Below are positions 25,224-60,159 of a DNA stretch of 64,000 nt, piece after piece. The stretch is from the NCBI RefSeq assembly GCF_000968535.2, contig NC_016112.1, forward strand, positions 1,426,001 to 1,490,000, read 5' to 3'. Below the pieces are notes generated by a model. The model was not told the DNA's origin. It did not search any database and saw only the letters and a list, made by a program, of their open reading frames with translations. A program made the translations under genes and the position numbers. Within the stretch, counting starts at the first letter, position 1. Each line of letters starts with the position of its first letter. This DNA comes from Methylotuvimicrobium alcaliphilum 20Z (lineage in GTDB: Bacteria > Pseudomonadota > Gammaproteobacteria > Methylococcales > Methylomonadaceae).

Positions 25224-26798
25224 ATGAAGGAGTGGATTGTGATCCATCAGATTAAAGCGTTATACAACGATGGCAACGGCTTATCCGAGCGTCAGATTGC
25301 CAGTCAATTGGGTATTTCCCGTAACACCGTGAGCAAATACCTGAAGCTGTCGGCTGCGGACATTAGTGCCCTGCAGGAAGAGATATCCCGTGGTAAGAAG
25401 CTGGACGATTACCGCGACTACATTATTCAGTTGCTGCAAACCTATCCGGGCTTGTCAGCGGTCAAAGTGCTGCGCAAACTGAAGGCCAAAGTGGACGATT
25501 TGGCCGTTTCCGACCGTTCGGTACGGCGTTATATACAGGCTCTCAAGCAAGAGATTAGCTTTAAGCAGGCGCGTTATTATGAGCCGGTATTGGACATGGT
25601 GCCGGGCGAACAATGCCAGGTCGATGGCGGCGAACTCCGCGATGTGATGATTGGCGGCGTGGCGACGACGGTATATTTCATGGTGTTTGTGCTATCGTAT
25701 TCGCGTCTGATGCATGTTTCGATCTGTGCCAAGCCGATTGATACCGAGATGCTGATTCGCCAGCACGATGCGGCATTTCGCTATTTCGGCGGCATGCCGC
25801 AAGAGTGCGTGTACGATCAGACCAAGCTGGTGGTCATTAGCGAAGTGTTTCGCGAGTTGCGCTTGAACCAGCGCTTCCATCAGTACGCCACGGCAGCGGG
25901 CTTCACGATTCGGGCTTGTGAAGGTTATGATCCGGAAAGCAAAGGCAAGGTCGAGGCCGGGGTCAAATACGTCAAACAAAATGCCTTGTATGGCGAGACT
26001 TTTACCGACTGGGATGCTTTGAAGGCCCATATGACCGACTGGCTCGACGGGATAGCCAATCAACGGCGACACGGCACCACCGGCCAACAACCGGCGATAC
26101 ATTACGCGGCCAACGAGCAAGGCCATATGCGGGCTTACCTGACGCCGTCTTGTGTTGACGCTACCGCCAGCCAGGCCCGCATCACCCGCAAGGCGGATAA
26201 AACCGGCTTGATCGCCTGGCAATCCAATAAATACTCGGTACCGATGGCGTATCAATGCGCCCGTGTCGCCGTGCATGAAGCTAACGGCGTCATCCAGATC
26301 AGCGATCTCAGTACTCACAAAGTGATCGCCGAACATGCTGTGTGTCTGGAAAAGGGGCAAATTATCAAGAACCGGCATCATTACCGAGATATGTCGCTAC
26401 GCATCGAAACGCTTGAAAAGGACTTGCATGAACTGCTGCCGTCTCCGGCGGTCGTGACTCAGCTATGTGCCTTGTTGAAAGCCAGCTCGCCGAAAATCTA
26501 CAAAGACCAGCTGGCCGGTGCCAAGCAGGTGCTGACCGAGCAGATCAAACAGCAGGGTGCGATTCCCGAAGCGGTGCTGACGCGACTGATCGACACGCCT
26601 CGGTTAACGGCCAGCGGCCTGAAAGAACGACTGGAGGCCTGGCGGCAGTCTGTGGGACGCTCGGACGACAGCGATGCCCTATCGATGCCGCCATCAGAGC
26701 AGGCCACTGCCGCCATCAAGCAAGAATGTCCGCTGGCCCGTTATCGTGCCCTGAATGGCCACTCGGCTGGCCAAGGAGAGAGCCATGCCATCCATTGA
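25224..26798 (+). CDS. istA: IS21 transposase IstA
   Basis: A 524-residue integrase-type transposase. An N-terminal helix-turn-helix (ERQIASQLGISRNTVSKYL, about 22-40) is followed by a DDE core with DGGELRDV, VYDQTK and ESKGKVEAGVKYVKQ. Length and motifs indicate an intact protein. The gene overlaps istB by 14 bp, as usual in the family. Confidence 0.95.
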   Translation: MKEWIVIHQIKALYNDGNGLSERQIASQLGISRNTVSKYLKLSAADISALQEEISRGKKLDDYRDYIIQLLQTYPGLSAVKVLRKLKAKVDDLAVSDRSVRRYIQALKQEISFKQARYYEPVLDMVPGEQCQVDGGELRDVMIGGVATTVYFMVFVLSYSRLMHVSICAKPIDTEMLIRQHDAAFRYFGGMPQECVYDQTKLVVISEVFRELRLNQRFHQYATAAGFTIRACEGYDPESKGKVEAGVKYVKQNALYGETFTDWDALKAHMTDWLDGIANQRRHGTTGQQPAIHYAANEQGHMRAYLTPSCVDATASQARITRKADKTGLIAWQSNKYSVPMAYQCARVAVHEANGVIQISDLSTHKVIAEHAVCLEKGQIIKNRHHYRDMSLRIETLEKDLHELLPSPAVVTQLCALLKASSPKIYKDQLAGAKQVLTEQIKQQGAIPEAVLTRLIDTPRLTASGLKERLEAWRQSVGRSDDSDALSMPPSEQATAAIKQECPLARYRALNGHSAGQGESHAIH

Positions 26799-28980: not shown

Positions 28981-30474
28981 TTAAAAGGGAGTAATAACAC
29001 CATCGCTATGTTTAACTAATTTATCGATGAGTTGCCCGTCCGCGTCGATTAACTCCAATTGCAAAGGCATTTTTCCGACCGCGTGGGTTGCGCAAGATAA
29101 ACAAGGGTCGTAGGCGCGGATCGCGACTTCTAGATTATTTAATAGCGGTTCGGTCAATTCGCGACCGTTTAAATATTCAGCAGCGACCTGACGGACCGAT
29201 TCGTTCATCCCCATGTTATTGCTGGTTGTTGAAACGATCAAATTGGCGCGGGTGACAATGTCGTTTTCATCGACTTGATAATGATGAAACAGTGTGCCGC
29301 GAGGGGCTTCGATCACGCCGATGCCTTCGAATCGCTTTTCACCTTGCGCGACGAGGTCGTTACTCATGATTTCCGGGTCGTTCAGTAAGACTTTGATGCT
29401 TTCGGCGCAGTGTAGCGTTTCTATCATGCGCGCCCAATGGGTTGCCAGCGTGCTATGAACCATTGCTTCACCGCCGTGTTGTTTAAATTCGATGCGAGCC
29501 GCCTCGGCCAACGGGGTGTCGATATAGTCGCAGTTATTGACGCGGGCCAGTGGGCCGACGCGGTACCAGCCGTTTTCCTTACCTTCCGACAACAAATAAG
29601 GAAACTTCATGTAGGTCCAGGAACGGACTTCTTCATGAATATAATCGTTGTAGCGACAATAATCGACATGGTCGAGGATGGTTTTGCCGTTGTCTCTTTT
29701 CGCGCGCAGACCTCCGTGATAAAGCTCCAGCGCACCGTCCGGACGGGTGAGGCCCAGATAATTACTGCGTATCGTCGCGAAATCGTCGTAATAAGGCAGA
29801 TTCGAACAATGGACTCTTTTGACCAGTTGTACCGTTGCTGCCGCCCATTCGATCATTTGATCGATATCGGTCAACAAATAATCGCGCTCTTCACGGGATA
29901 ACGGTTTGTTCATGCCGCCGGCGATTGCTCCGGTGCCGTGAATGCGCTTGCCGGAAATCATGCGGATTACTTCTTGTCCGTATTTGCGAAGCTTGACACC
30001 CTGTACGCCGATTTCAGGGTGCTCGGCCAATACCGCGATGATGCTGCGTTTGCCGATCTCGCTTTCGAAGCCGAACAATAAATCCGGGCTCGACAAATGG
30101 AAAAAATGTAAGGCGTGGGACTGCATAACTTGGCCGAAATGCAGCAAGCGTCTTAATTTGGTTGCGGCTGGAGGCAGATTTTCCGGGTCGATGCCGACGA
30201 GCTGATCGATTGCCTTGGCGGCGGCTAAATGATGACTGACCGGGCAGATGCCGCATAGGCGCTGCACTAAAACAGGTAGCTCCCAATAAGGACGACCTTG
30301 AATGAAGCGTTCGAAACCTCGAAACTCGACGATATGCAAGCGGGCCTGTTGGACCTTATTGTTTTCATCGAGCAATAATGTGACTTTGCCATGGCCTTCG
30401 ACCCGCGATACCGGATCGACCACGACACGTTTAAGGTTTTCCGGGCTGGCGGCTGTTTCTAAATGTTCGTACAT
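28981..30474 (-). CDS. hoxH: NAD-reducing hydrogenase large subunit HoxH
   Basis: A 497-residue [NiFe] subunit. Nickel ligands are in RLCGICPVSHHLA (about 60-72) and DPCLSCATH near the C-terminus. About 32 residues after CATH form the extension expected to be removed by an endopeptidase (HoxW), which is not in the window. Last gene of hoxFUYH; a 180-bp noncoding gap (30475-30654) separates it from hoxY, with nothing recognisable in it. Confidence 0.96.
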   Translation of the reverse strand: MYEHLETAASPENLKRVVVDPVSRVEGHGKVTLLLDENNKVQQARLHIVEFRGFERFIQGRPYWELPVLVQRLCGICPVSHHLAAAKAIDQLVGIDPENLPPAATKLRRLLHFGQVMQSHALHFFHLSSPDLLFGFESEIGKRSIIAVLAEHPEIGVQGVKLRKYGQEVIRMISGKRIHGTGAIAGGMNKPLSREERDYLLTDIDQMIEWAAATVQLVKRVHCSNLPYYDDFATIRSNYLGLTRPDGALELYHGGLRAKRDNGKTILDHVDYCRYNDYIHEEVRSWTYMKFPYLLSEGKENGWYRVGPLARVNNCDYIDTPLAEAARIEFKQHGGEAMVHSTLATHWARMIETLHCAESIKVLLNDPEIMSNDLVAQGEKRFEGIGVIEAPRGTLFHHYQVDENDIVTRANLIVSTTSNNMGMNESVRQVAAEYLNGRELTEPLLNNLEVAIRAYDPCLSCATHAVGKMPLQLELIDADGQLIDKLVKHSDGVITPF

Positions 30475-38349: not shown

Positions 38350-40596
38350 ATGGACATTACACATCAAAGTGAAATCAGACGCGATAATTTTCCTATCTTC
38401 TTGTTCGCGTTGACGTTATTCAGCAGTGCTTCTTTAATGTTTGTTTTACAACCGATGTTTGGGAAAGCGCTTTTGCCTTTATTAGGCGGCTCTGCATCCG
38501 TATGGAATACCTGTATGGTGTTTTATCAGAGCATCCTCTTTCTGGGCTATCTCTATGCCCATTTTCTCTCCACTCGCTTTGGCTATCGAAAGCATCTTGC
38601 CATCCATCTTTCGATACTGCTTATCAGTCTTTATTTCCTTCCGGTAAGTATCCCTGAGGGTAGCAGGCCGCCCAGTTCGGAAAATCCCAGTATTTGGTTG
38701 TTGTCGACTTTATTTGTGTCGATAGGCTTGCCGTTTTTCGTGTTGTCCACTAACTCGCCCTTATTGCAAAAGTGGTTTTCAAAAATCGGCCATCAGACCA
38801 GTAACGACCCTTATTATCTTTCGATCGCCAGTAATGCCGGCAGCTTGATCGCGTTATTGAGCTATCCTTTTTTACTGGAACCCGCCATCGGTATTAGCCA
38901 GCAACAGCAGTACTGGAGTGCGGGTTTTCTTGTACTGATAGGCTTGATTTCATTGTGTATGCTAGTTCTGAAACAGCAGCACTTTCAACCTGCAGTCAAT
39001 AAGGCATCAAGTATTAATCTAGTCGAAAAGCCTGAACCGAAATTACAAATTCAATGGTTATTATTGGCGTTTGTGCCTTCTAGTTTGTTATTGGGCACGA
39101 CTAATTTCATCAGCATCGATATCGCTACGGTGCCGTTGTTATGGGTTATTCCTTTAGCCTTGTATTTGTTCTCATTTATTTTGGTATTTTCCGGTTACGG
39201 TGCGGCGATTCATAAAAAAATATTATTGATACAGCCTTGGCTGGTTGCACCCTTTTTGATTTACTACTTTTCGAATCAAAAACTGGCCTCTTTTTCAGTT
39301 GAATTATTGATTCATTTATTCGTTTTCTTTATATCCATCATGGTATGTCATGGGGAGTTAGCTAAGAAACGCCCCTCGACAAACTATCTCACTCAATATT
39401 ATTTAATCATGTCTTTCGGCGGCATGCTCGGCGGTATTTTTAACAGCTTTATCGCGCCGTTTATATTCAGCTCGATTTACGAATATCCACTGATGATTGT
39501 TTGCGCATTGCTGTTGAACCCAATCAATGGCATTGGTCAGTATGTTAAGGAACATTTGGCGAAAATTATTTTTAGCGCTTACTTCATTACGTTTGCGGTC
39601 ATTTTATCGATCAGTGTCAAACAACTGGACGATGCATTTCTCATTAGTTTTGCGATTATTGCTTTAATGGGCGCAGCCTACTTTCTATTTAAAAAAAATT
39701 CGTTGTATTTTCCTTTGGTTGGACTGTTGGTATTGTCCTGTGCGGCTCCGGAAAAACATCAAGGCGGAGACCAGCTCTTACATCAAAGCCGAAATTTTTA
39801 TGGCGTATTGTCGGTCAAGAAAATTTCGGATCTCAATGTCGACAACAATACGCACACATTGCATGAAATTTATAGCGGCACAACCCGGCATGGCTTGCAG
39901 TTGTTGAACGATGTCAATCGACAATGCACGCCGAACGGCTATTACAGTCCGCAAGGGCCTTTGGGTTCCATTTTTGCGAATTACAACAACCAAAACAACA
40001 CTTGGCGGATCGGAGTTGTCGGTCTTGGAGCTGGAGAAATGGCCGGTTACGCCAAAGCGTCTCAACACTGGACATTTTTCGAACTCGATCCGGCCGTTGT
40101 GCAGATCGCAACGAACCCAGAGTATTTTACTTATTTAACGGATTGTATCAGCGGTTACGACATTCAAGTCGGGGACGCCAGAATCACATTGGAAAATCAA
40201 CCAAATCCTTTTGATTTATTGGTTATCGATGCGTTTACTTCGGATTCGATACCGACCCATTTGCTCACCAAGGAAGCTTTGGAGTTGTATTTTTCTAGGC
40301 TGGAAAATCACGGTTTGTTGGTTTTCCACATTTCCAACCGTTATCTGGAGCTGAAGAAGGTGTTGGCGGATCATGCGGAAAAATTGGGATTGACGCTGTT
40401 GCTGCAAGAATTTAGGCCTGAGCAAAATATTCCTTTTGTTTATCGATCGGATTGGGCCATTCTGGCTCGAAAAGAAGCGGACCTTCTGCCTTTAGTCAAT
40501 GCCGACTTGCAGCATAATTGGCAAAGAGTGCCTCATTACGCCGATGCTCGTTCATGGACGGACGATTTCACTAGCATCATGAACGTTTGGAAATAA
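38350..40596 (+). CDS. Fused membrane / spermidine-synthase-like protein
   Basis: 748 residues. The N-terminal roughly 460 residues have about 10-12 membrane helices. The C-terminal domain (about 500-748) is a Rossmann-type aminopropyltransferase fold with VGLGAGEMAGYA and a following acidic strand end FFELDPAVVQIA, then VGDARITLENQ and LLVIDAFTSDSIP. This fusion is known as spermidine-synthase-like transporter-type proteins of unknown function; polyamine activity is not implied. Monocistronic. Confidence 0.82.
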   Translation: MDITHQSEIRRDNFPIFLFALTLFSSASLMFVLQPMFGKALLPLLGGSASVWNTCMVFYQSILFLGYLYAHFLSTRFGYRKHLAIHLSILLISLYFLPVSIPEGSRPPSSENPSIWLLSTLFVSIGLPFFVLSTNSPLLQKWFSKIGHQTSNDPYYLSIASNAGSLIALLSYPFLLEPAIGISQQQQYWSAGFLVLIGLISLCMLVLKQQHFQPAVNKASSINLVEKPEPKLQIQWLLLAFVPSSLLLGTTNFISIDIATVPLLWVIPLALYLFSFILVFSGYGAAIHKKILLIQPWLVAPFLIYYFSNQKLASFSVELLIHLFVFFISIMVCHGELAKKRPSTNYLTQYYLIMSFGGMLGGIFNSFIAPFIFSSIYEYPLMIVCALLLNPINGIGQYVKEHLAKIIFSAYFITFAVILSISVKQLDDAFLISFAIIALMGAAYFLFKKNSLYFPLVGLLVLSCAAPEKHQGGDQLLHQSRNFYGVLSVKKISDLNVDNNTHTLHEIYSGTTRHGLQLLNDVNRQCTPNGYYSPQGPLGSIFANYNNQNNTWRIGVVGLGAGEMAGYAKASQHWTFFELDPAVVQIATNPEYFTYLTDCISGYDIQVGDARITLENQPNPFDLLVIDAFTSDSIPTHLLTKEALELYFSRLENHGLLVFHISNRYLELKKVLADHAEKLGLTLLLQEFRPEQNIPFVYRSDWAILARKEADLLPLVNADLQHNWQRVPHYADARSWTDDFTSIMNVWK

Positions 40597-41236
40597 GCTA
40601 TATACTTTCGCGCTTCAAATTTCGGCAGTGCCTAAGGCGCCGGGGTTCTCGTTCATACGCATCAAGCTAAAAACGGCCAACCCGCATCGTGCTCTTTCCC
40701 AAGCCCCAGCTTGGGAAAGACACTCCGGAAGCTCCAGCTTCCTGTGACCGATATAACATTCCCAATCAGCCCCGATCGCTCGTCTAATCTTCCTTGATTG
40801 TCGTGAAGCTGGAGCTGGGTAACAGCATATTTTAGTCTATGTGACCTCGATGCCATTTATTGTATCTGGGTATTCTCGGCCGTCCCTAATCTAACGTTTG
40901 GTGAGGGAGCATAGAGACTACAGCGCCTACTCCTTTTATAGTCAAAAAATGGCTAACTTTATGAAGGTATGGGTGTGGCTAGCGAGGATGTCGGCAGCAG
41001 GGCAGATTTTTGCTCCTGCAAAATCTGCATTCACGCCATCCTTGGCGTTTGAGCTGCCGTCAAGCCTCCATGGAAGGTTTCACAGGTCCTGCCTGGCGAA
41101 TGACCGCATCCTCACCACTCTTTCCATGCTTTCATTTACCGTGGCGATTACCAGGCCTTCATCAACCTTACTGTTTCGGAAGGTTATTTCGTGTATATTC
41201 CTTAACACCCCTCAAGCTCGACAAAGGAGGAAGTCA
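40597..41236. repeat. Gene-free stretch of mixed repeat remnants
   Basis: A truncated type A end (TACTTTCGCGCTTCAAATTTC at 40602) is followed by palindromic pieces (CTTTCCCAAGCCCCAGC and CTGGAGCTGGG), an M2-like remnant (ATGTGACCTCGATGCC at 40840) and a stretch to 41176 with no motif. The gene-proximal motif (41177-41205) precedes the ERG2-like gene. The open frame from 40898 across this stretch has no family features and is not taken as coding. Confidence 0.6.
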
Positions 41237-41806
41237 GTGAGCTATATATTCGATATCGATCGTCTTCATGCCATTGCTTTGCAAGGAATCGGGAAGACCC
41301 ACGACGAAATGGTGAAAGTAATAGTGGAAGAAACCGCCCGGGCCTACCCCAAACACGTCGATTCCAATCCAAATCGCCGATGGCTATTCAGCTTGACGGC
41401 GGGTGCGACCGGTGTGATGACGATACTCCATGCATCTTTTACTGAATATTTGATCATTTTCGGAACGCCGGTCGGTACGGAAGGCTTTTCCGGCCGCTAC
41501 CGCATGGAGATACATGATTTTTTTATGGCCGGTGAGGTTTGGACTTATCGGAAAGACCGTTGTGGAGTACGCGAAGTGGCAGGGCCCGGCGATCATACCG
41601 TTCTGGAACGTGGTAGCGTCAATGGGTTTAAGATCCCTGATTCGGCTTGGATGTTGGAATATGGCCGAGGATTCATACCATCCGCTTTTCCGCTTATTCT
41701 AGGCGATGTGGTATTCAGTGCCGTCGATGGGACGACCTTGGCCGAGACGGTTTGGTTATACGGAAAAATGGCGTTACGGGAGCTGTTAGTCAATCAGAAG
41801 TTTTAG
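41237..41806 (+). CDS. ERG2 / sigma-1 receptor family protein (putative sterol isomerase)
   Basis: 189 residues. ERG2 moves the sterol C8 double bond to C7; the mammalian sigma-1 receptor has the same fold. The signature blocks are TILHASFTEYLIIFGTPVG, TEGFSGRY and WMLEYGRGFIPSAFPLILGD. The two acidic residues that line the sigma-1 ligand pocket (Asp126 and Glu172) have counterparts Asp94 (EIHDFF) and Glu141 (MLEYG) with nearly the same spacing. The N-terminal membrane helix of eukaryotic members is absent. The GTG start at 41237 has an AAAGGAGG site 6 bp upstream. It is 19 bp before a sterol reductase gene. Confidence 0.88.
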   Translation: MSYIFDIDRLHAIALQGIGKTHDEMVKVIVEETARAYPKHVDSNPNRRWLFSLTAGATGVMTILHASFTEYLIIFGTPVGTEGFSGRYRMEIHDFFMAGEVWTYRKDRCGVREVAGPGDHTVLERGSVNGFKIPDSAWMLEYGRGFIPSAFPLILGDVVFSAVDGTTLAETVWLYGKMALRELLVNQKF

Positions 41807-41825
41807 TATTGAAAAGGAGCGGATA

Positions 41826-43109
41826 ATGAGTGAACAAGAATCGAGAGACAATGCGGCCGTCGATGCGGTTCGTCAGAAATACGGTTTCGGCTTTTCATGG
41901 CTTGTGCTCATGATAGCGCTGCCGCCACTGGTCTATTATTTATGGATTTGCGTCACTTATTACCAAGGTGAACTGGTCTTCACTAGCGACGCGGCGGCTT
42001 GGCGGCGGTTTTGGTCTCATGTTGCGCCGCCGACCTGGCATGCCGCAGGCCTTTACGCGGCTTGGTTTTTAGGTCAGGCCGCGTTGCAGGTTTGGGCGCC
42101 TGGTCCGACCGTTCAAGGCATGAAATTGCCTGACGGCAGTCGGCTCGATTATCGGATGAATGGAATATTTTCTTTCCTTTTTACCCTGGCCGTGGTGTTC
42201 GGTTTGGTAACGATGGGGTGGTTGGACGCTACCGTTTTGTATGACCAACTCGGCCCATTGCTTACTGTAGTGAATATTTTTACCTTTGTTTTTGCGGGTT
42301 TTCTCTATTTTTGGGGCTTAAACGGGAAGCAATGGGAGCGGCCGACCGGACGTCCTTTTTATGATTATTTCATGGGAACGGCGCTTAACCCACGGATTGG
42401 ATCTCTTGATCTCAAGCTGTTTTGCGAAGCCCGCCCCGGCATGATTTTTTGGTTACTGATGAATCTTTCGATGGCGGCCAAACAGTATGAATTGCACGGC
42501 ACGGTGACTGTCCCGATGTTGCTCGTGGTGGGGTTTCAAAGTTTTTATTTGATCGATTACTTTATCCATGAAGAAGCCGTCCTGACGACTTGGGATATCA
42601 AGCACGAGAAGTTTGGCTGGATGCTTTGTTGGGGAGACTTGGTGTGGTTGCCTTTTACCTATACCTTGCAGGCTCAGTATTTGGTCCATCATACCCATGA
42701 CCTGCCCGTATGGGGCATTATTGCTATTGTGGCTTTGAATTTGGCCGGTTATGCAATTTTTCGGGGCGCCAATATCCAAAAGCATCATTTTCGGCGCGAT
42801 CCAAACCGGATTGTGTGGGGGAAGCCGGCAAAATATATTAAAACCAAGCAAGGTTCATTATTACTGACTTCCGGTTGGTGGGGCATTGCTCGTCACATGA
42901 ATTACTTCGGCGATTTGATGATTGCACTCTCGTGGTGTTTGCCCGCTGCTTTCGGTAGCCCCATACCTTATTTCCATATCGTATATTTCACCATTTTGCT
43001 TCTGCATAGAGAAAAGCGCGATGATGCGATGTGCTTGGCAAAGTACGGCGAAGATTGGTTGCAATACCGGAAAAAGGTGCCTTGGCGTATCGTGCCAAAA
43101 ATTTACTAA
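41826..43109 (+). CDS. ERG4/ERG24-family sterol reductase
   Basis: 427 residues with about 10 membrane helices. The C-terminal signature is clear: LLLTSGWWGIARHMNYFGDL, LLLHREKRDDAMC, KYGEDWLQYRKKVPWRIVPKIY. The family reduces sterol double bonds with NADPH (C14 or C24). The reductase from Methylomicrobium alcaliphilum is a structural model for the family. Coupling to an ERG2-like gene suggests both act on a tetracyclic sterol ring. The ribosome-binding site AAGGAGCGG is good. Confidence 0.93.
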   Translation: MSEQESRDNAAVDAVRQKYGFGFSWLVLMIALPPLVYYLWICVTYYQGELVFTSDAAAWRRFWSHVAPPTWHAAGLYAAWFLGQAALQVWAPGPTVQGMKLPDGSRLDYRMNGIFSFLFTLAVVFGLVTMGWLDATVLYDQLGPLLTVVNIFTFVFAGFLYFWGLNGKQWERPTGRPFYDYFMGTALNPRIGSLDLKLFCEARPGMIFWLLMNLSMAAKQYELHGTVTVPMLLVVGFQSFYLIDYFIHEEAVLTTWDIKHEKFGWMLCWGDLVWLPFTYTLQAQYLVHHTHDLPVWGIIAIVALNLAGYAIFRGANIQKHHFRRDPNRIVWGKPAKYIKTKQGSLLLTSGWWGIARHMNYFGDLMIALSWCLPAAFGSPIPYFHIVYFTILLLHREKRDDAMCLAKYGEDWLQYRKKVPWRIVPKIY

Positions 43110-43126
43110 GGATTTCGCGATACATA

Positions 43127-43318
43127 CCCATCGTAGATCAAAATTCGGCGCGCGGGTGACGGAGAACGCAATGCCATTAAGTAAAAAGGACTTTTCCGTT
43201 CGTCTTGGGCCCTTCGGCTGCGCTCAGGAGAGTCTTGTCGAAGGGGAATGGATGCGTCCGAGTCGATAAATTAAGCCATCCATGGTTCGACAGACTCACC
43301 ACGAACGGCTTAATTTAA
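43127..43318. repeat. Type A fragment and a diverged M4 MITE
   Basis: A short type A end (ATCGTAGATCAAAATTCGGC at 43130) is followed by a diverged M4 copy from ATGCCATTAAG (43171) through GGTTCGACAGACTCACC to CGGCTTAATTTAA (43318). M4's right end is broken by the M1 insertion. The gene-free stretch 43110-43591 holds nothing else. Confidence 0.7.
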
Positions 43319-43547
43319 CCTGATTAGCAAGATGCTTCAGCTTGCTGAAGCCAATTGTCCGAGCAGTGGCCAGTCGTAGCCACTTCTGCGGGACGGGTTA
43401 TTTAAGCCGTCCCCAACGTTTCGGTTTGCCCTAAACATTTCGGCTAACTTCGGCCAAAGTCAAAACGTTTAGGACGGGGTTGCAAACCCCGTCCTGCTAG
43501 GGATATTCTGGTTTTTGGGCTTTAGCTGAAGAAACTTGCTAATCAGG
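43319..43547 (+). mobile_element. MITE M1, copy 1, 229 bp
   Basis: The ends CCTGATTAGCAAGATGCTTC and the complementary GCTAATCAGG are inverted. An 8-bp duplication TAATTTAA flanks it (43311-43318 and 43548-43555). The interior has GC-rich stems (AGGACGGGG/CCCCGTCCT and GGGACGGG/CCGTCCC). No ORF. The second copy, in opposite orientation, is at 44961-45189. Confidence 0.93.
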
Positions 43548-43591
43548 TAATTTAATGCTAGCGGGACTCCGAATAGAAATCGGAGCGCTGT

Positions 43592-44845
43592 TTATTGTTT
43601 GTTAATCGGTAATTGGGCGATTCGATGCTCTATTTTTTGCATCATTTTCTGATAGGCGGCGCCTTCTAAACCGCCGTAGAGTCGATTAAATTCCTGTTCT
43701 GCAAGATATTCGGGTAAGTCGGCTGTTTTCGGGATGATGTCGCGCTCTTGGGCCGTGCTCATAAATGCTTGAATTTTTCCGGCTTGTGATGGATTTTGCA
43801 CGGCGAGCTCGCCCATGAGCGTGCCGGCCCGATTGGCGGTCATATCGATGAATGAAAAGCCGCTGCCGCCTCTCGAATCTTCCAGTTCTTTATATAATCC
43901 TATGGCGTCGGCCAATGGCGTGCCGGCATAGGCTGCAAGCGTAGCCGACACTAAATAATGTTTGCTTAAATCGTTGCGTTGATTGAGAGTCACGGTTCGC
44001 CAAATCGGACGATATTGGCTTTTTAGTGAAGGAATGATTTTATTAAGCGTTAAACGGTTGGCGTATAACGTTAGCACCAGAATGACGGCACGGTTTTCAC
44101 CAATCGGGTCGCTTCGGCGACTGCGTTCGTTTGCCAATTGAAATAAGGGTTGCGTGAGCTCGGTCAAACTCAAGTGCTTTTTGGGCGCGCGCGTTAGTAT
44201 TACCAAACGTTGCTGATAAACTTCAATTCGATGCTGTTCTTGTTCGGGTAAAAGAGCGCCGCTGAGTTTGGTCGGTAAATTTTCATGCCATTTATAAGTC
44301 ACGATCATTCGTTTGTTGATGAATCTGACCTTTCTGATCATGGCTTGAAGCGCCTTCCAATCGGCATCCGGTAGTATAAGGCTGTAGATACTTTTGCTTA
44401 AATTATTTGCTATAAGTCCGGGTATTCTTAATTTGCCCAACGATAGATGGTCGATTTCAGGAAGACTATGTGTTTGCTTGAGTTCGATTGTTAAGTTTAA
44501 ATAATTGCCCAGTGGGTTTGAAGGTAGTTTTAGAGTGCTTTCAATGATGGCTCGATCTTGTTTGATTGTTAAACCGGCAACGCCGCCGAAATATTGATTG
44601 ACGAAATAATTGACGGCTAGGTCCAGGTCTCTCTGTTCAATGCTGGCTCTTGCTATCGTGCCGGTTGCTAGGCGTCGCGGGTCGTTTTCTACAAAAATTT
44701 GTTTTCCTCTAGCTATTTGCTCGGGGGTGATATCAGGTCTTGCTCTTAGCTTGGGTTTGTCTTCCACGACTAGCAGCAGTAAGGTGATAGTCAGGACCAG
44801 AAAAACCAAAAGCGATGAGAACAATAGTTTTATAATTAATTTCAT
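43592..44845 (-). CDS. Unrecognised membrane-anchored protein
   Basis: 417 residues with an N-terminal membrane segment (LLFSSLLVFLVLTITLLLLVV), after which the protein is soluble and probably periplasmic. No motif or family is recognised; helices dominate. The gene stands alone between two inverted M1 MITEs. Length and codon use look like those of a real gene, and no repeat enters the frame. Confidence 0.7.
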   Translation of the reverse strand: MKLIIKLLFSSLLVFLVLTITLLLLVVEDKPKLRARPDITPEQIARGKQIFVENDPRRLATGTIARASIEQRDLDLAVNYFVNQYFGGVAGLTIKQDRAIIESTLKLPSNPLGNYLNLTIELKQTHSLPEIDHLSLGKLRIPGLIANNLSKSIYSLILPDADWKALQAMIRKVRFINKRMIVTYKWHENLPTKLSGALLPEQEQHRIEVYQQRLVILTRAPKKHLSLTELTQPLFQLANERSRRSDPIGENRAVILVLTLYANRLTLNKIIPSLKSQYRPIWRTVTLNQRNDLSKHYLVSATLAAYAGTPLADAIGLYKELEDSRGGSGFSFIDMTANRAGTLMGELAVQNPSQAGKIQAFMSTAQERDIIPKTADLPEYLAEQEFNRLYGGLEGAAYQKMMQKIEHRIAQLPINKQ

Positions 44846-44871: not shown

Positions 44872-45275
44872 AAAGATACCCTTTGCTAGCCGTATTTCGG
44901 CGCCGGGGCTGTCAACGCCATTATTAAGTGTCAAGAAGTTAGGTGCGGGGCAAATTATTACCTGATTAGCAAGTTTCTTCAGCTAAAGCCCAAAAACCAG
45001 CATATCCCTAGCAGAACGGGGTTTCCAACCCCGTCCTAAACGTTTTGACTTTGGCCGAAGTCAGCCGAAATGTTTAGGGCAAACCGAAACGTTGGGGACG
45101 GGTTAAATAACCCGTCCCGCAGAAGTGGCTACGACTGGCCACTGCTCGGACAATTGGCTTCAGCAAGCTGAAGCATCTTGCTAATCAGGAATTATTATAC
45201 CCTTCGTTTATCAAAAATCGGCGCAGGGGCGTCCGTCAAAGGCCCATCCCTAAATTTGGAGTGCGAAAGGTATAT
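44872..45275. repeat. Decayed type A repeat split by M1
   Basis: TATTTCGGCGCCGGGGCTGTC (44892) to CAAATTATTA, then after M1 AATTATTATACCC and CGGCGCAGGGGCGTCC to GAGTGCGAAAGGTATATA. The two sides join into a degenerate type A copy. A solo gene-proximal repeat (45311-45360) follows. The stretch 44846-45465 contains no gene; a short frame at 45261-45491 has no support. Confidence 0.65.
44961..45189 (-). mobile_element. MITE M1, copy 2, 229 bp
   Basis: The same 229-bp length and ends as copy 1, in inverse orientation. An 8-bp duplication AATTATTA flanks it (44953-44960 and 45190-45197). The two different duplications show independent insertion events. A partial third relative is at about 59616-59735. 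Confidence 0.93.
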
Positions 45276-45465: not shown

Positions 45466-47025
45466 ATGAAATTTCTTGCTGTTCATCCTAGCCCGCTGAT
45501 GTATACCAAGGTGTTTTTACGCCTTGAGCCGCTTGGGCTGGAACAAGTTGCCGAAACGGCCCGGCGGCAAGGTTACGATACACGGTTGATCGACTTGCAA
45601 GTAGAGTCTCATCAAGATTTATTTCGGTTAATGGACGATTGGCAACCCGATATCGTTGGTTTCTCGTTGAATTATTTGGCCAATGTTCCCGAGGTCATCG
45701 ATCTCGTTAAAGCCGTGAAAGCTCGTTTGCCGAAGAGTTTTGTCTTTATCGGCGGGCATAGTGCGTCGTTTACCGCCGAAGAATTATTGGAACACGGCGA
45801 AGGCAGTCTTGATGCTATTCTCAAAGGGGAGGGCGAGTCGGGTCTTCCTTTGTTGTTCCAAGCCATAAAGGAAGACAGAGAAAACGTTCATGACGTGCCC
45901 GGTGTGGTGACGATGAAAGGCGAGGGCGGACAGCCGACGTTTATCCCTGATCTTGACAATCTTGCGCCGGCTCGCGACTTAGTCCGACATCGTAATAAAT
46001 ATTTTCTCGGTACGCTCGATCCTTGTGCGTCGATCGAATTTTCCCGAGGTTGCCCGTGGGACTGTTCGTTCTGCAGTGCTTGGACATTCTATGGACGAAG
46101 TTATCGCGTGATGAGTCCCGATAAAGTTGTCGAAGAAATGGAAAAAATTCGCGAGCCCGGTATTTTCATTGTCGACGATGTCGCATTTATTCAAGAAAAA
46201 ATGGGCTTCGAAATCGGCGAGGCCTTGGCTCGGAAAGGCATTAAGAAAGAATATTATTTGGAAACGCGCGGCGATGTGTTGCTGCGTAATAAAGACGTCT
46301 TCAAGTTTTGGAAGGAGCTTGGGATGAGCTACATGTTCTTGGGTATCGAGTCGATCGATCAGGACGGGCTCGAAAAATATCGTAAACGTATTGATTTGAG
46401 TCGTAATTTCGAGGCTTTAGAGTTTGCGCGGACTCTGGGTATCAATGTCGCGATCAACATCATTGCCGATACCGATTGGGATCATGAGCGTTTCCGTGTG
46501 GTCAGGGAATGGTGTAAAGAAGTTCCTGAAATTGTTAATATCAGCGTCAATACGCCTTATCCGGGAACCGAGAGCTGGCTAACCGAGTCGCGTAATTTGA
46601 CGACCCGCGATTATCGATTGTTCGATATTCAGCATGCGGTGCTGCCGACGCGTTTACCGATAGAGGAGTTTTACGCGGAATTGGTCGAAACTCAGCGTGT
46701 GATGTTTACAAAACACATGGGGTGGGCGGCTATGCGCGATGTGACGAAGGTCTTGGTCGGCAATTTAATGCGCGGCCAAACGAACTTTGCGAAGAATCTG
46801 TTTAAATTCGATAAAGTATTCAATCCGGAATTGCAATTGGCAGACCATCAAATGCCGGTTAAATATCAAATGAAGCCGCCGGTTAAAGACACTAAATTTT
46901 CCAGCGCCAAGGCGTTATCCAAGTCGCTGTATGTTCATGAGCCGTTAGGGCGGACGAGTCGACAGTTGGATGACGATACCGAAAAATTTGTCGATGAGAG
47001 TCGGGGCGCTTTGAGCGAGTCTTGA
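45466..47025 (+). CDS. hpnR: Hopanoid C-3 methylase HpnR (B12-binding radical SAM)
   Basis: 519 residues. The N-terminal cobalamin-binding domain (about 1-150) is followed by the radical SAM domain with Cys196, Cys200 and Cys203 in SRGCPWDCSFC. HpnR adds the C-3 methyl to hopanoids and marks 3-methylhopanoid producers such as aerobic methanotrophs. The start MKFLAVHPSPLMYTKVFLR is typical, with an AAGGAG site upstream. A gene-proximal repeat ends about 105 bp before the start. Confidence 0.9.
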   Translation: MKFLAVHPSPLMYTKVFLRLEPLGLEQVAETARRQGYDTRLIDLQVESHQDLFRLMDDWQPDIVGFSLNYLANVPEVIDLVKAVKARLPKSFVFIGGHSASFTAEELLEHGEGSLDAILKGEGESGLPLLFQAIKEDRENVHDVPGVVTMKGEGGQPTFIPDLDNLAPARDLVRHRNKYFLGTLDPCASIEFSRGCPWDCSFCSAWTFYGRSYRVMSPDKVVEEMEKIREPGIFIVDDVAFIQEKMGFEIGEALARKGIKKEYYLETRGDVLLRNKDVFKFWKELGMSYMFLGIESIDQDGLEKYRKRIDLSRNFEALEFARTLGINVAINIIADTDWDHERFRVVREWCKEVPEIVNISVNTPYPGTESWLTESRNLTTRDYRLFDIQHAVLPTRLPIEEFYAELVETQRVMFTKHMGWAAMRDVTKVLVGNLMRGQTNFAKNLFKFDKVFNPELQLADHQMPVKYQMKPPVKDTKFSSAKALSKSLYVHEPLGRTSRQLDDDTEKFVDESRGALSES

Positions 47026-59363: not shown

Positions 59364-60159
59364 GGTTTTAAAGGTGGATAGTTTGTTGAATGTCGGTTTA
59401 AGAGTGCAGGTTTACAATGTGTTTTGTAATGCTTTCGTGTCAGGCGGCTTTATTAAGTCAATACCGTATCTTGCTTCGTGTCGAAAATGGAGTCATAAAG
59501 GTGCGGAAAAGGCATTATTCATGTGGTATCTGGAACTCGACCGTCAAGCCCCCTTGCGTCATTCATTCGAGTAACAGGACGCGCTTATCGGCATGAAACC
59601 AAAGTTAGGCATTTGATCTAGCGGGACGGGGTTTGCAACCCCGTCCTAAACGTTTAGACTTTGGCCGAGGTAAGCCGAAATGTTTAGGGTAAACCGAAAC
59701 ATTGGGGGCGGGTTAAATAACCCGTCCCGCAGAAGTATCGGAAACCCGTCATTCCGTCATGGATTGCCGGAACCAGTTGCCACGGATGGCTGTATTAAGT
59801 GCACCTTTATGGTCTGAATTTCGGCAATCTTTTGTTACATGACGACTTAACTTAATGGCCCATGAAACCAAAGTTAGGCATTGATTATAGTAACGCTGTT
59901 GGCATTATGCAAAATATTGTTGTATTTAGGCTAAATGATACAAGTATGGGTAAAAATGTGACGGCATGTTTTTTGATAATCTATAAGCATGGTTGTTGTC
60001 AGGATTTTAGTGCTCCTCAGCGATTGATATTGCTTGATCATTTAAGGATATTGAGTGTTCTGCTTCACCGCCGGGATTGTTTTTAACCGAATTTGCACTT
60101 GTTGCGTTTGAGCCAATCAAATATAATACCCCTCGCTTACTATATTAAAGCCAATCTAT
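59364..60159. repeat. Gene-free stretch with M1 remnant
   Basis: An M1 relative without its ends is at 59616-59735 (GGGACGGGGTTTGCAACC and GGGCGGGTTAAATAACC). A right-end M4 remnant CTTAACTTAATGG is at 59847. Short frames at 59317-59574 and 59862-60086 have no recognisable features. The rest shows nothing. Confidence 0.6.

Follow-up and report, generated by a model that had tools for sequence, protein, structure and literature searches.

Results

An ERG2-family gene beside a sterol reductase gene

The window analysed here is a stretch of 64,000 nucleotides from Methylotuvimicrobium alcaliphilum 20Z (NCBI RefSeq assembly GCF_000968535.2, contig NC_016112.1, positions 1,426,001 to 1,490,000), and all coordinates are counted from its first letter unless another stretch is named. 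It contains a short gene of the ERG2/sigma-1 receptor family, followed on the same strand by the gene of a sterol reductase, with the following features:

41223..41230, + strand: ribosome-binding site AAAGGAGG of the ERG2-family gene, read from the sequence
41237..41806, + strand: ERG2/sigma-1 family protein, 189 residues, GTG start, proposed sterol Delta8-Delta7 isomerase (PF04622, E 5e-51; 62/178 residues identical to the human sigma-1 receptor, 5hk1)
41516..41518, + strand: codon of D94, counterpart of D126 of the sigma-1 receptor (Sig1R) by alignment, invariant in 8/8 bacterial rows
41657..41659, + strand: codon of E141, counterpart of Sig1R E172 by alignment, invariant in 8/8 bacterial rows
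41807..41825, + strand: gap of 19 bp with AAAAGGAG before the reductase, read from the sequence
41826..43109, + strand: MaSR1, Delta14-sterol reductase, 427 residues (427/427 residues identical to PDB 4QUV; PF01222, E 4.1e-123)

The 189-residue protein of the first-pass annotation was confirmed as a GTG-started frame at 41237-41806. The site AAAGGAGG ends six bases 5' of the GTG, and the same site precedes the gene in M. buryatense (L002), with AAGGAG in wino1 (L046). The N-termini of eight aligned bacterial ERG2 proteins begin at the same point and read M/V-(S/R)-Y-(V/I)-F-D-I, so the GTG at 41237 is the likely start. A longer frame from a TTG at 40898 was rejected in view of this common N-terminus.

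The blocks TEYLIIFGTPVG, FSGRY and WMLEYGRGFIPS, named in the first-pass annotation, are all present in the protein. PF04622 (ERG2 and sigma-1 receptor) matched with 173.5 bits, the cut-off being 21, over positions 21-209 of the 210 in the profile. This is the single match to the family in the genome, and none was obtained in the control genomes (0/14). The gene is a real member of the ERG2 family, it is intact, and its host is an unusual one.

The stop codon of the ERG2-family gene ends at 41806 and the ATG of the reductase lies at 41826, with a GGAG site inside the 19-bp gap, the distance which had been read before between this gene and one of the ERG4/ERG24 type. In a scan of 40500-43700, two promoter-like sites were found against a mean of 4.0 in shuffled sequence, and nine terminator-like sites where shuffling gave 4.6, including one 3' of the pair at 43567-43585; Rfam gave no match at the gathering threshold. 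The two genes may be transcribed jointly. MaSR1 has reportedly been known since a structure paper by Li in 2015. The reductase of the window is the very same protein, without any difference: PDB entry 4QUV is named Delta(14)-sterol reductase, MaSR1 is described as the enzyme of Methylotuvimicrobium (formerly Methylomicrobium) alcaliphilum (PMC12489058, later citing papers), and its locus tag in strain 20Z is MEALZ_1312 (Wei 2016).

Likeness to the sigma-1 receptor

The window protein shares 35% of aligned residues with human Sig1R and 39% with the Xenopus receptor over the soluble domain. Four distinct solved sigma-1 receptor sequences were matched with E values of 7.5e-33 to 1.6e-29, and Sig1R is the sole solved relative found. 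Both ligand-pocket acids, D94 and E141, stand at the positions given for them in the first-pass annotation and align with D126 and E172 of the receptor; their loss in relatives was looked for, and both are kept in all eight bacterial proteins aligned as well as in Xenopus Sig1R. In a comparison by sequence alignment with the 15 Sig1R pocket residues listed in PMC7865886, the window protein is identical at eight (M93, Y103, F107, I124, D126, E172, I178 and Y206), carries a hydrophobic swap at four (from Sig1R to the window protein L95I, L105I, W164I and L182F) and a larger change at three (V84S at S52, W89A at A57 and H154L at L123). AlphaFold2, run on a four-row alignment of the window protein and three related-locus proteins, gave a mean pLDDT of 35.7. 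Yeast ERG2 presumably has an alanine at the place of W89 likewise.

No N-terminal hydrophobic segment was found in the 189-residue protein, whose most hydrophobic 19 residues are 145-163, and the alignments with the four receptor sequences begin at its residue 2 against chain residues 35-40. The hydrophobicity profile and the alignment start thus agree with the earlier observation that the membrane anchor of the eukaryotic members is missing, and for this reason the protein may bind the membrane peripherally, by way of its hydrophobic residues 145-163. Fungal ERG2, a sterol C8-C7 isomerase, belongs to the same Pfam family, PF04622; it has an N-terminal anchor, and in its pathway it works beside the C-14 reductase, acting after ERG24. 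The window protein differs from it in being bacterial, in lacking the anchor and in having a putative isomerase role. From the sigma-1 receptor (5hk1, 7w2b), with which it has D126, E172 and Y103 in common, the bacterial protein differs in the missing anchor and at W89, H154 and V84, and its gene adjoins a sterol reductase gene.

Sig1R keeps both acids and yet has no isomerase activity (PMC8293995), an activity given as not shown in PMC7865886 too, so the presence of the two acids is no guarantee of catalysis. The mammalian Delta8-Delta7 isomerase EBP carries out the same reaction but belongs to a different family (PMC6549186), and Sig1R is described as having no homology to the mammalian isomerase (PMC8293995).

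The sterol pathway in the genome

Cyclases were sought in the genome with PF13243, which gave four cyclase-type matches. The third lies in a stretch (L040) that encodes a squalene epoxidase (PF08491, E 3.5e-80), an oxidosqualene cyclase of 750 residues, a protein of 200 residues and a P450-ferredoxin fusion; MEALZ_0767, 0768 and 0770 are given as the epoxidase, cyclase and C-14 demethylase (Wei 2016). The squalene epoxidase, cyclase and C14-demethylase-type P450 to which the first-pass annotation had pointed are thus all three present elsewhere in the genome.

The 200-residue protein (L040:11768-12370, minus strand), flanked by the cyclase and the P450-ferredoxin fusion, is 8,14-Bsr-like. It has no Pfam match and was identified by its place and by Y37, Y43, Y78, Y80, D133 and D136, which are the 8,14-Bsr positions in PMC13277303, where these six were tested in the enzyme of Methylococcus capsulatus. 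The 8,14-Bsr acts at the same branch point as the pair, but it belongs to the NTF2 superfamily and makes an 8(14) product (PMC13277303). The genes required to make a substrate for ERG2, namely squalene epoxidase, cyclase, P450-ferredoxin fusion and MaSR1, are all encoded here. Since epoxidase, cyclase, P450 and 8,14-Bsr-like gene are present, the 8,14-diene, the substrate of MaSR1, should form, and the genome also has the core 8(14) route.

Wei 2016, citing Banta 2015, records a single sterol for M. alcaliphilum 20Z, apparently 4,4-dimethylcholest-8-en-3-ol (the layout of the table is ambiguous), and lists no Delta7 sterol for it. The same table places M. capsulatus under Delta8 columns, though its sterols are of the 8(14) type (PMC13277303), and it may therefore not separate these isomers. 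No record of a Delta7 sterol was found in the literature search.

Besides the oxidosqualene cyclase, the genome has two strong matches of the squalene-hopene-cyclase type and a weaker one in a frame of 402 residues (G000:C2:2900912, 3598795, 3095950). FA_hydroxylase (PF04116) is matched by four proteins (G000:C2:967903, 2914852, 3583148, 4361062), among which there may be a C-5 sterol desaturase that would follow a Delta7 sterol.

Distribution and pairing across genomes

PF04622 was found in 11 of 311 Methylococcales genomes, and PF01222, counted at E 1e-20 or better, in the same 11. A smaller sample of 201 Methylococcales genomes gave seven with either family, again an identical set; 16 further genomes of this sample matched PF01222 weakly (E 1.8e-6 to 7.9e-4, from profile position 330 onwards only, two of them barely over the cut-off) and were counted as misses. 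The 11 pair-bearing genomes fall into five genera: four belong to the genus of the window (g1), three to g23, two to g10 and one each to g4 and g43, the last being a member of another family.

The two genes are adjacent in 11/11 genomes, on one strand and with the isomerase gene first, which upholds the two-gene unit seen in the first-pass annotation. The gaps, counted from the junction sequences, measure 19, 19, 19, 20, 22, 20, 21, 20, 20, 20 and 24 bp, and a GGAG stands 5' of the reductase in eight of the 11. In one genome (G111) the reductase matches are split over two contigs. Across the five genera the ERG2 proteins are 75-96% identical to the window protein, and no stop interrupts the PF04622 match in any of the 11 genomes.

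Among 398 Pseudomonadota genomes, PF04622 was matched by the window's own genome alone. A tblastn search of plasmids and phages gave no match, and in an alignment scan of viral contigs 22 stretches were matched by pattern and none by tblastn; a contig scan with the ERG2 protein alone returned three close kin.

An oxidosqualene cyclase at least 74% identical to that of the window's genome occurs in 10 of the 11 pair-bearing genomes; that of G667 lies at the end of a contig and covers residues 1-587 only. No cyclase of that grade was found in G111 (72% complete, 5% contaminated), where the match, at 26%, is of squalene-hopene-cyclase grade. In the sample of 201, a cyclase match of E 7e-72 or better was obtained in 78 genomes (33 of them at 34-38% identity) versus six of the seven with the pair (Fisher p 0.014, kinship ignored). 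The 8,14-Bsr is far from being confined to pair-bearing genomes: it is present in 76 of the 201, including 7/7 of those with the pair.

Probable gain, loss and transfer of the pair

Flanking genes were compared by blastp (1e-15) among frames of 80 residues or more; in this comparison the ERG2 frame of G194 is masked by an overlapping frame, although it is seen in the alignments, and G624 and G111 are represented by contigs of only 4.4 and 5.4 kb. Within the window's genus, all four loci have flanking genes in common. Among the seven loci outside it, nothing but the pair is shared, and this holds inside g23 as well; the one exception is G604 and G141, which have two proteins in common (52% and 62%) several kb from the pair. 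A third gene travelling with the pair was found at none of these seven loci, which fits two coupled steps.

In two further members of the window's genus, G124 and G166, both flanks of the window locus are present in order, separated by approximately 0.8 and 0.3 kb versus 2.9 kb, pair included, in the window. PF04622 is found nowhere in these two genomes, and both retain the cyclase and the 8,14-Bsr. Because the pair is carried by G667, which branches deepest within the genus when the cyclases are compared in a tree (its own cyclase being partial), loss is the simpler reading of its absence from G124 and G166.

Between genera, ERG2 is 74-92% identical (78-92% if G111 is left out), the reductase 83-93% and the cyclase 73-86%; the three values for G604 and G624, which belong to two genera, are 92%, 93% and 83%, respectively. 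In the tree of the pair and in that of the cyclase, nodes outside Methylotuvimicrobium have supports of 41-69, and one of 89. The unrelated flanks and the identities of G604 and G624 suggest a transfer of the pair between genera, which the tree does not prove.

Discussion

Proposed role of the pair

The pair probably constitutes an accessory branch of eukaryotic type beside the core 8(14) route, in which MaSR1 would make a Delta8 sterol whose double bond would then be shifted to Delta7 by the ERG2 homologue. ERG2 chemistry consists of protonation at C-9 and deprotonation at C-7. In the proposed scheme, CYP51 would take off the C-14 methyl to give the 8,14-diene, which the core enzyme 8,14-Bsr would convert into the 8(14)-sterol. 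Where a strain has the pair, MaSR1 would instead reduce the C-14 double bond with NADPH, and the ERG2-family protein would then protonate C-9 of the Delta8 sterol and remove a C-7 proton, leading to a Delta7 sterol, probably 4,4-dimethyl; E141 and D94 are the candidate acid/base pair. The ERG2 homologue is most likely an isomerase, and the direction and substrate given above are those predicted for it. The earlier reading of the two genes as a sterol ring-editing unit is supported, with catalysis as its presumptive part; of the refuting outcomes named for it, neither a missing profile match, nor a loss of the pocket acids, nor a genome devoid of a sterol cyclase was encountered. The literature search found no report of the isomerase activity.

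The protein may also bind sterols without catalysis, as a partner protein of the sigma-1 kind that would hand substrate to MaSR1 or stabilise the reductase, a role that its strict coupling to MaSR1 would fit as well and that recalls Sig1R, the only solved relative found, which has no shown isomerase activity (PMC8293995, PMC7865886). We consider this unlikely: the N-terminal anchor is missing, and the two acids, which are also kept by Sig1R, are retained 8/8 without being obviously needed for the binding of a neutral sterol. An enzyme is moreover the simpler account of the pairing, because in the eukaryotic pathway ERG2 acts after ERG24. As an isomerase, the protein might work on a different bond among Delta8, Delta7 and 8(14), for example from Delta8 or Delta7 to 8(14), and the pair would then be a second route to 8(14) sterols; for eukaryotes, PMC13277303 discusses an isomerase that follows a C-14 reductase, as well as the conversion of Delta7 into 8(14) by an orthologue of the C-8 isomerase. 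Such a route would however be redundant, since the 8,14-Bsr, present in all seven pair-bearing genomes tested, makes 8(14) on its own, and it is as a Delta8-Delta7 isomerase that ERG2 is named (PMC12489058); to this reading we give little credence. The patchy distribution of the pair (11/311) could be that of a decaying remnant or of a eukaryotic contaminant in the assemblies, but this was rejected as extremely improbable in view of the conserved intact frames, their uninterrupted PF04622 matches and identities across five genera, and of a MaSR1 that is itself a solved protein.

As regards the proposed Delta8-Delta7 isomerase and its reductase, we are inclined, with some reserve, to view the ERG2-ERG24 pair as a minimal portable two-gene cassette, gained and lost as a unit, which would switch part of the sterol pool from the 8(14) bond of the family to a Delta8/Delta7 arrangement resembling that of eukaryotes, so that some methanotrophs would make Delta7 sterols.

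Relation to previous work

The idea of an isomerase in Methylotuvimicrobium is not new: PMC13277303 (2026) credits species of this genus with both C-14 reductase and C-8 isomerase and suggests a bifurcation of the pathway. The methanotrophs treated there, Methylotuvimicrobium excepted, are described as having no canonical C-14 reductase homologue, whereas seven genomes outside the genus carry one in our data (PF01222; in pieces in G111). A C-8 isomerization homologue has been placed in the sterol cluster of Calothrix sp. NIES-4105 (PMC10202945, 2023); it is likewise a bacterial gene, comparable with the present one by description only, which fits either an ERG2 or an EBP type. According to the same paper, almost all steps of the eukaryotic pathway have homologues in Enhygromyxa salina. 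What is added here is the strict two-gene pairing, its spread to other genera and its gain or loss as a unit; a literature search which mostly did not reach subscription journals found no report of the ERG2-reductase pairing or of its spread beyond the genus.

If active, the protein would represent the ERG2/sigma-1 family among bacteria as a sterol Delta8-Delta7 isomerase; its host is a cultured methanotroph with genetic tools, and the structure of the reductase encoded beside it is known. Because it is related to the sigma-1 receptor but small and devoid of the anchor, it may help to tell enzyme from receptor. Should Delta7 sterols form, the position of the double bond would be a strain-level trait in methanotrophs, set by the presence or absence of the cassette, and this would bear on the use of 8(14) sterols as biomarkers of methanotrophy.

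Other features of the window

Just upstream of the pair, a protein of 748 residues (38350-40596, + strand) matches a fused MFS/spermidine synthase (NF037959, 50.7 bits, cut-off 40). Two genes downstream of the pair lies HpnR, the hopanoid C-3 methylase (45466-47025, + strand; TIGR04367, 873.6 bits, cut-off 650), and the flank that includes its gene is kept in the two members of the genus without the pair. An intergenic stretch of 251 bp (43301-43551) is repeated in inverted orientation, at 95%, at 44957-45207, across the gene at 43592-44845, and a 119-bp piece of this repeat recurs at 59618-59736; short dispersed repeats are found in several intergenic gaps, both here and in relatives. Farther upstream, the window encodes a NiFe hydrogenase large subunit (28981-30474, - strand), which is nearest to the F420-non-reducing VhuA (with 402 bits it falls short of the cut-off, 800), and a transposase of the IS21 family (25224-26798, + strand).
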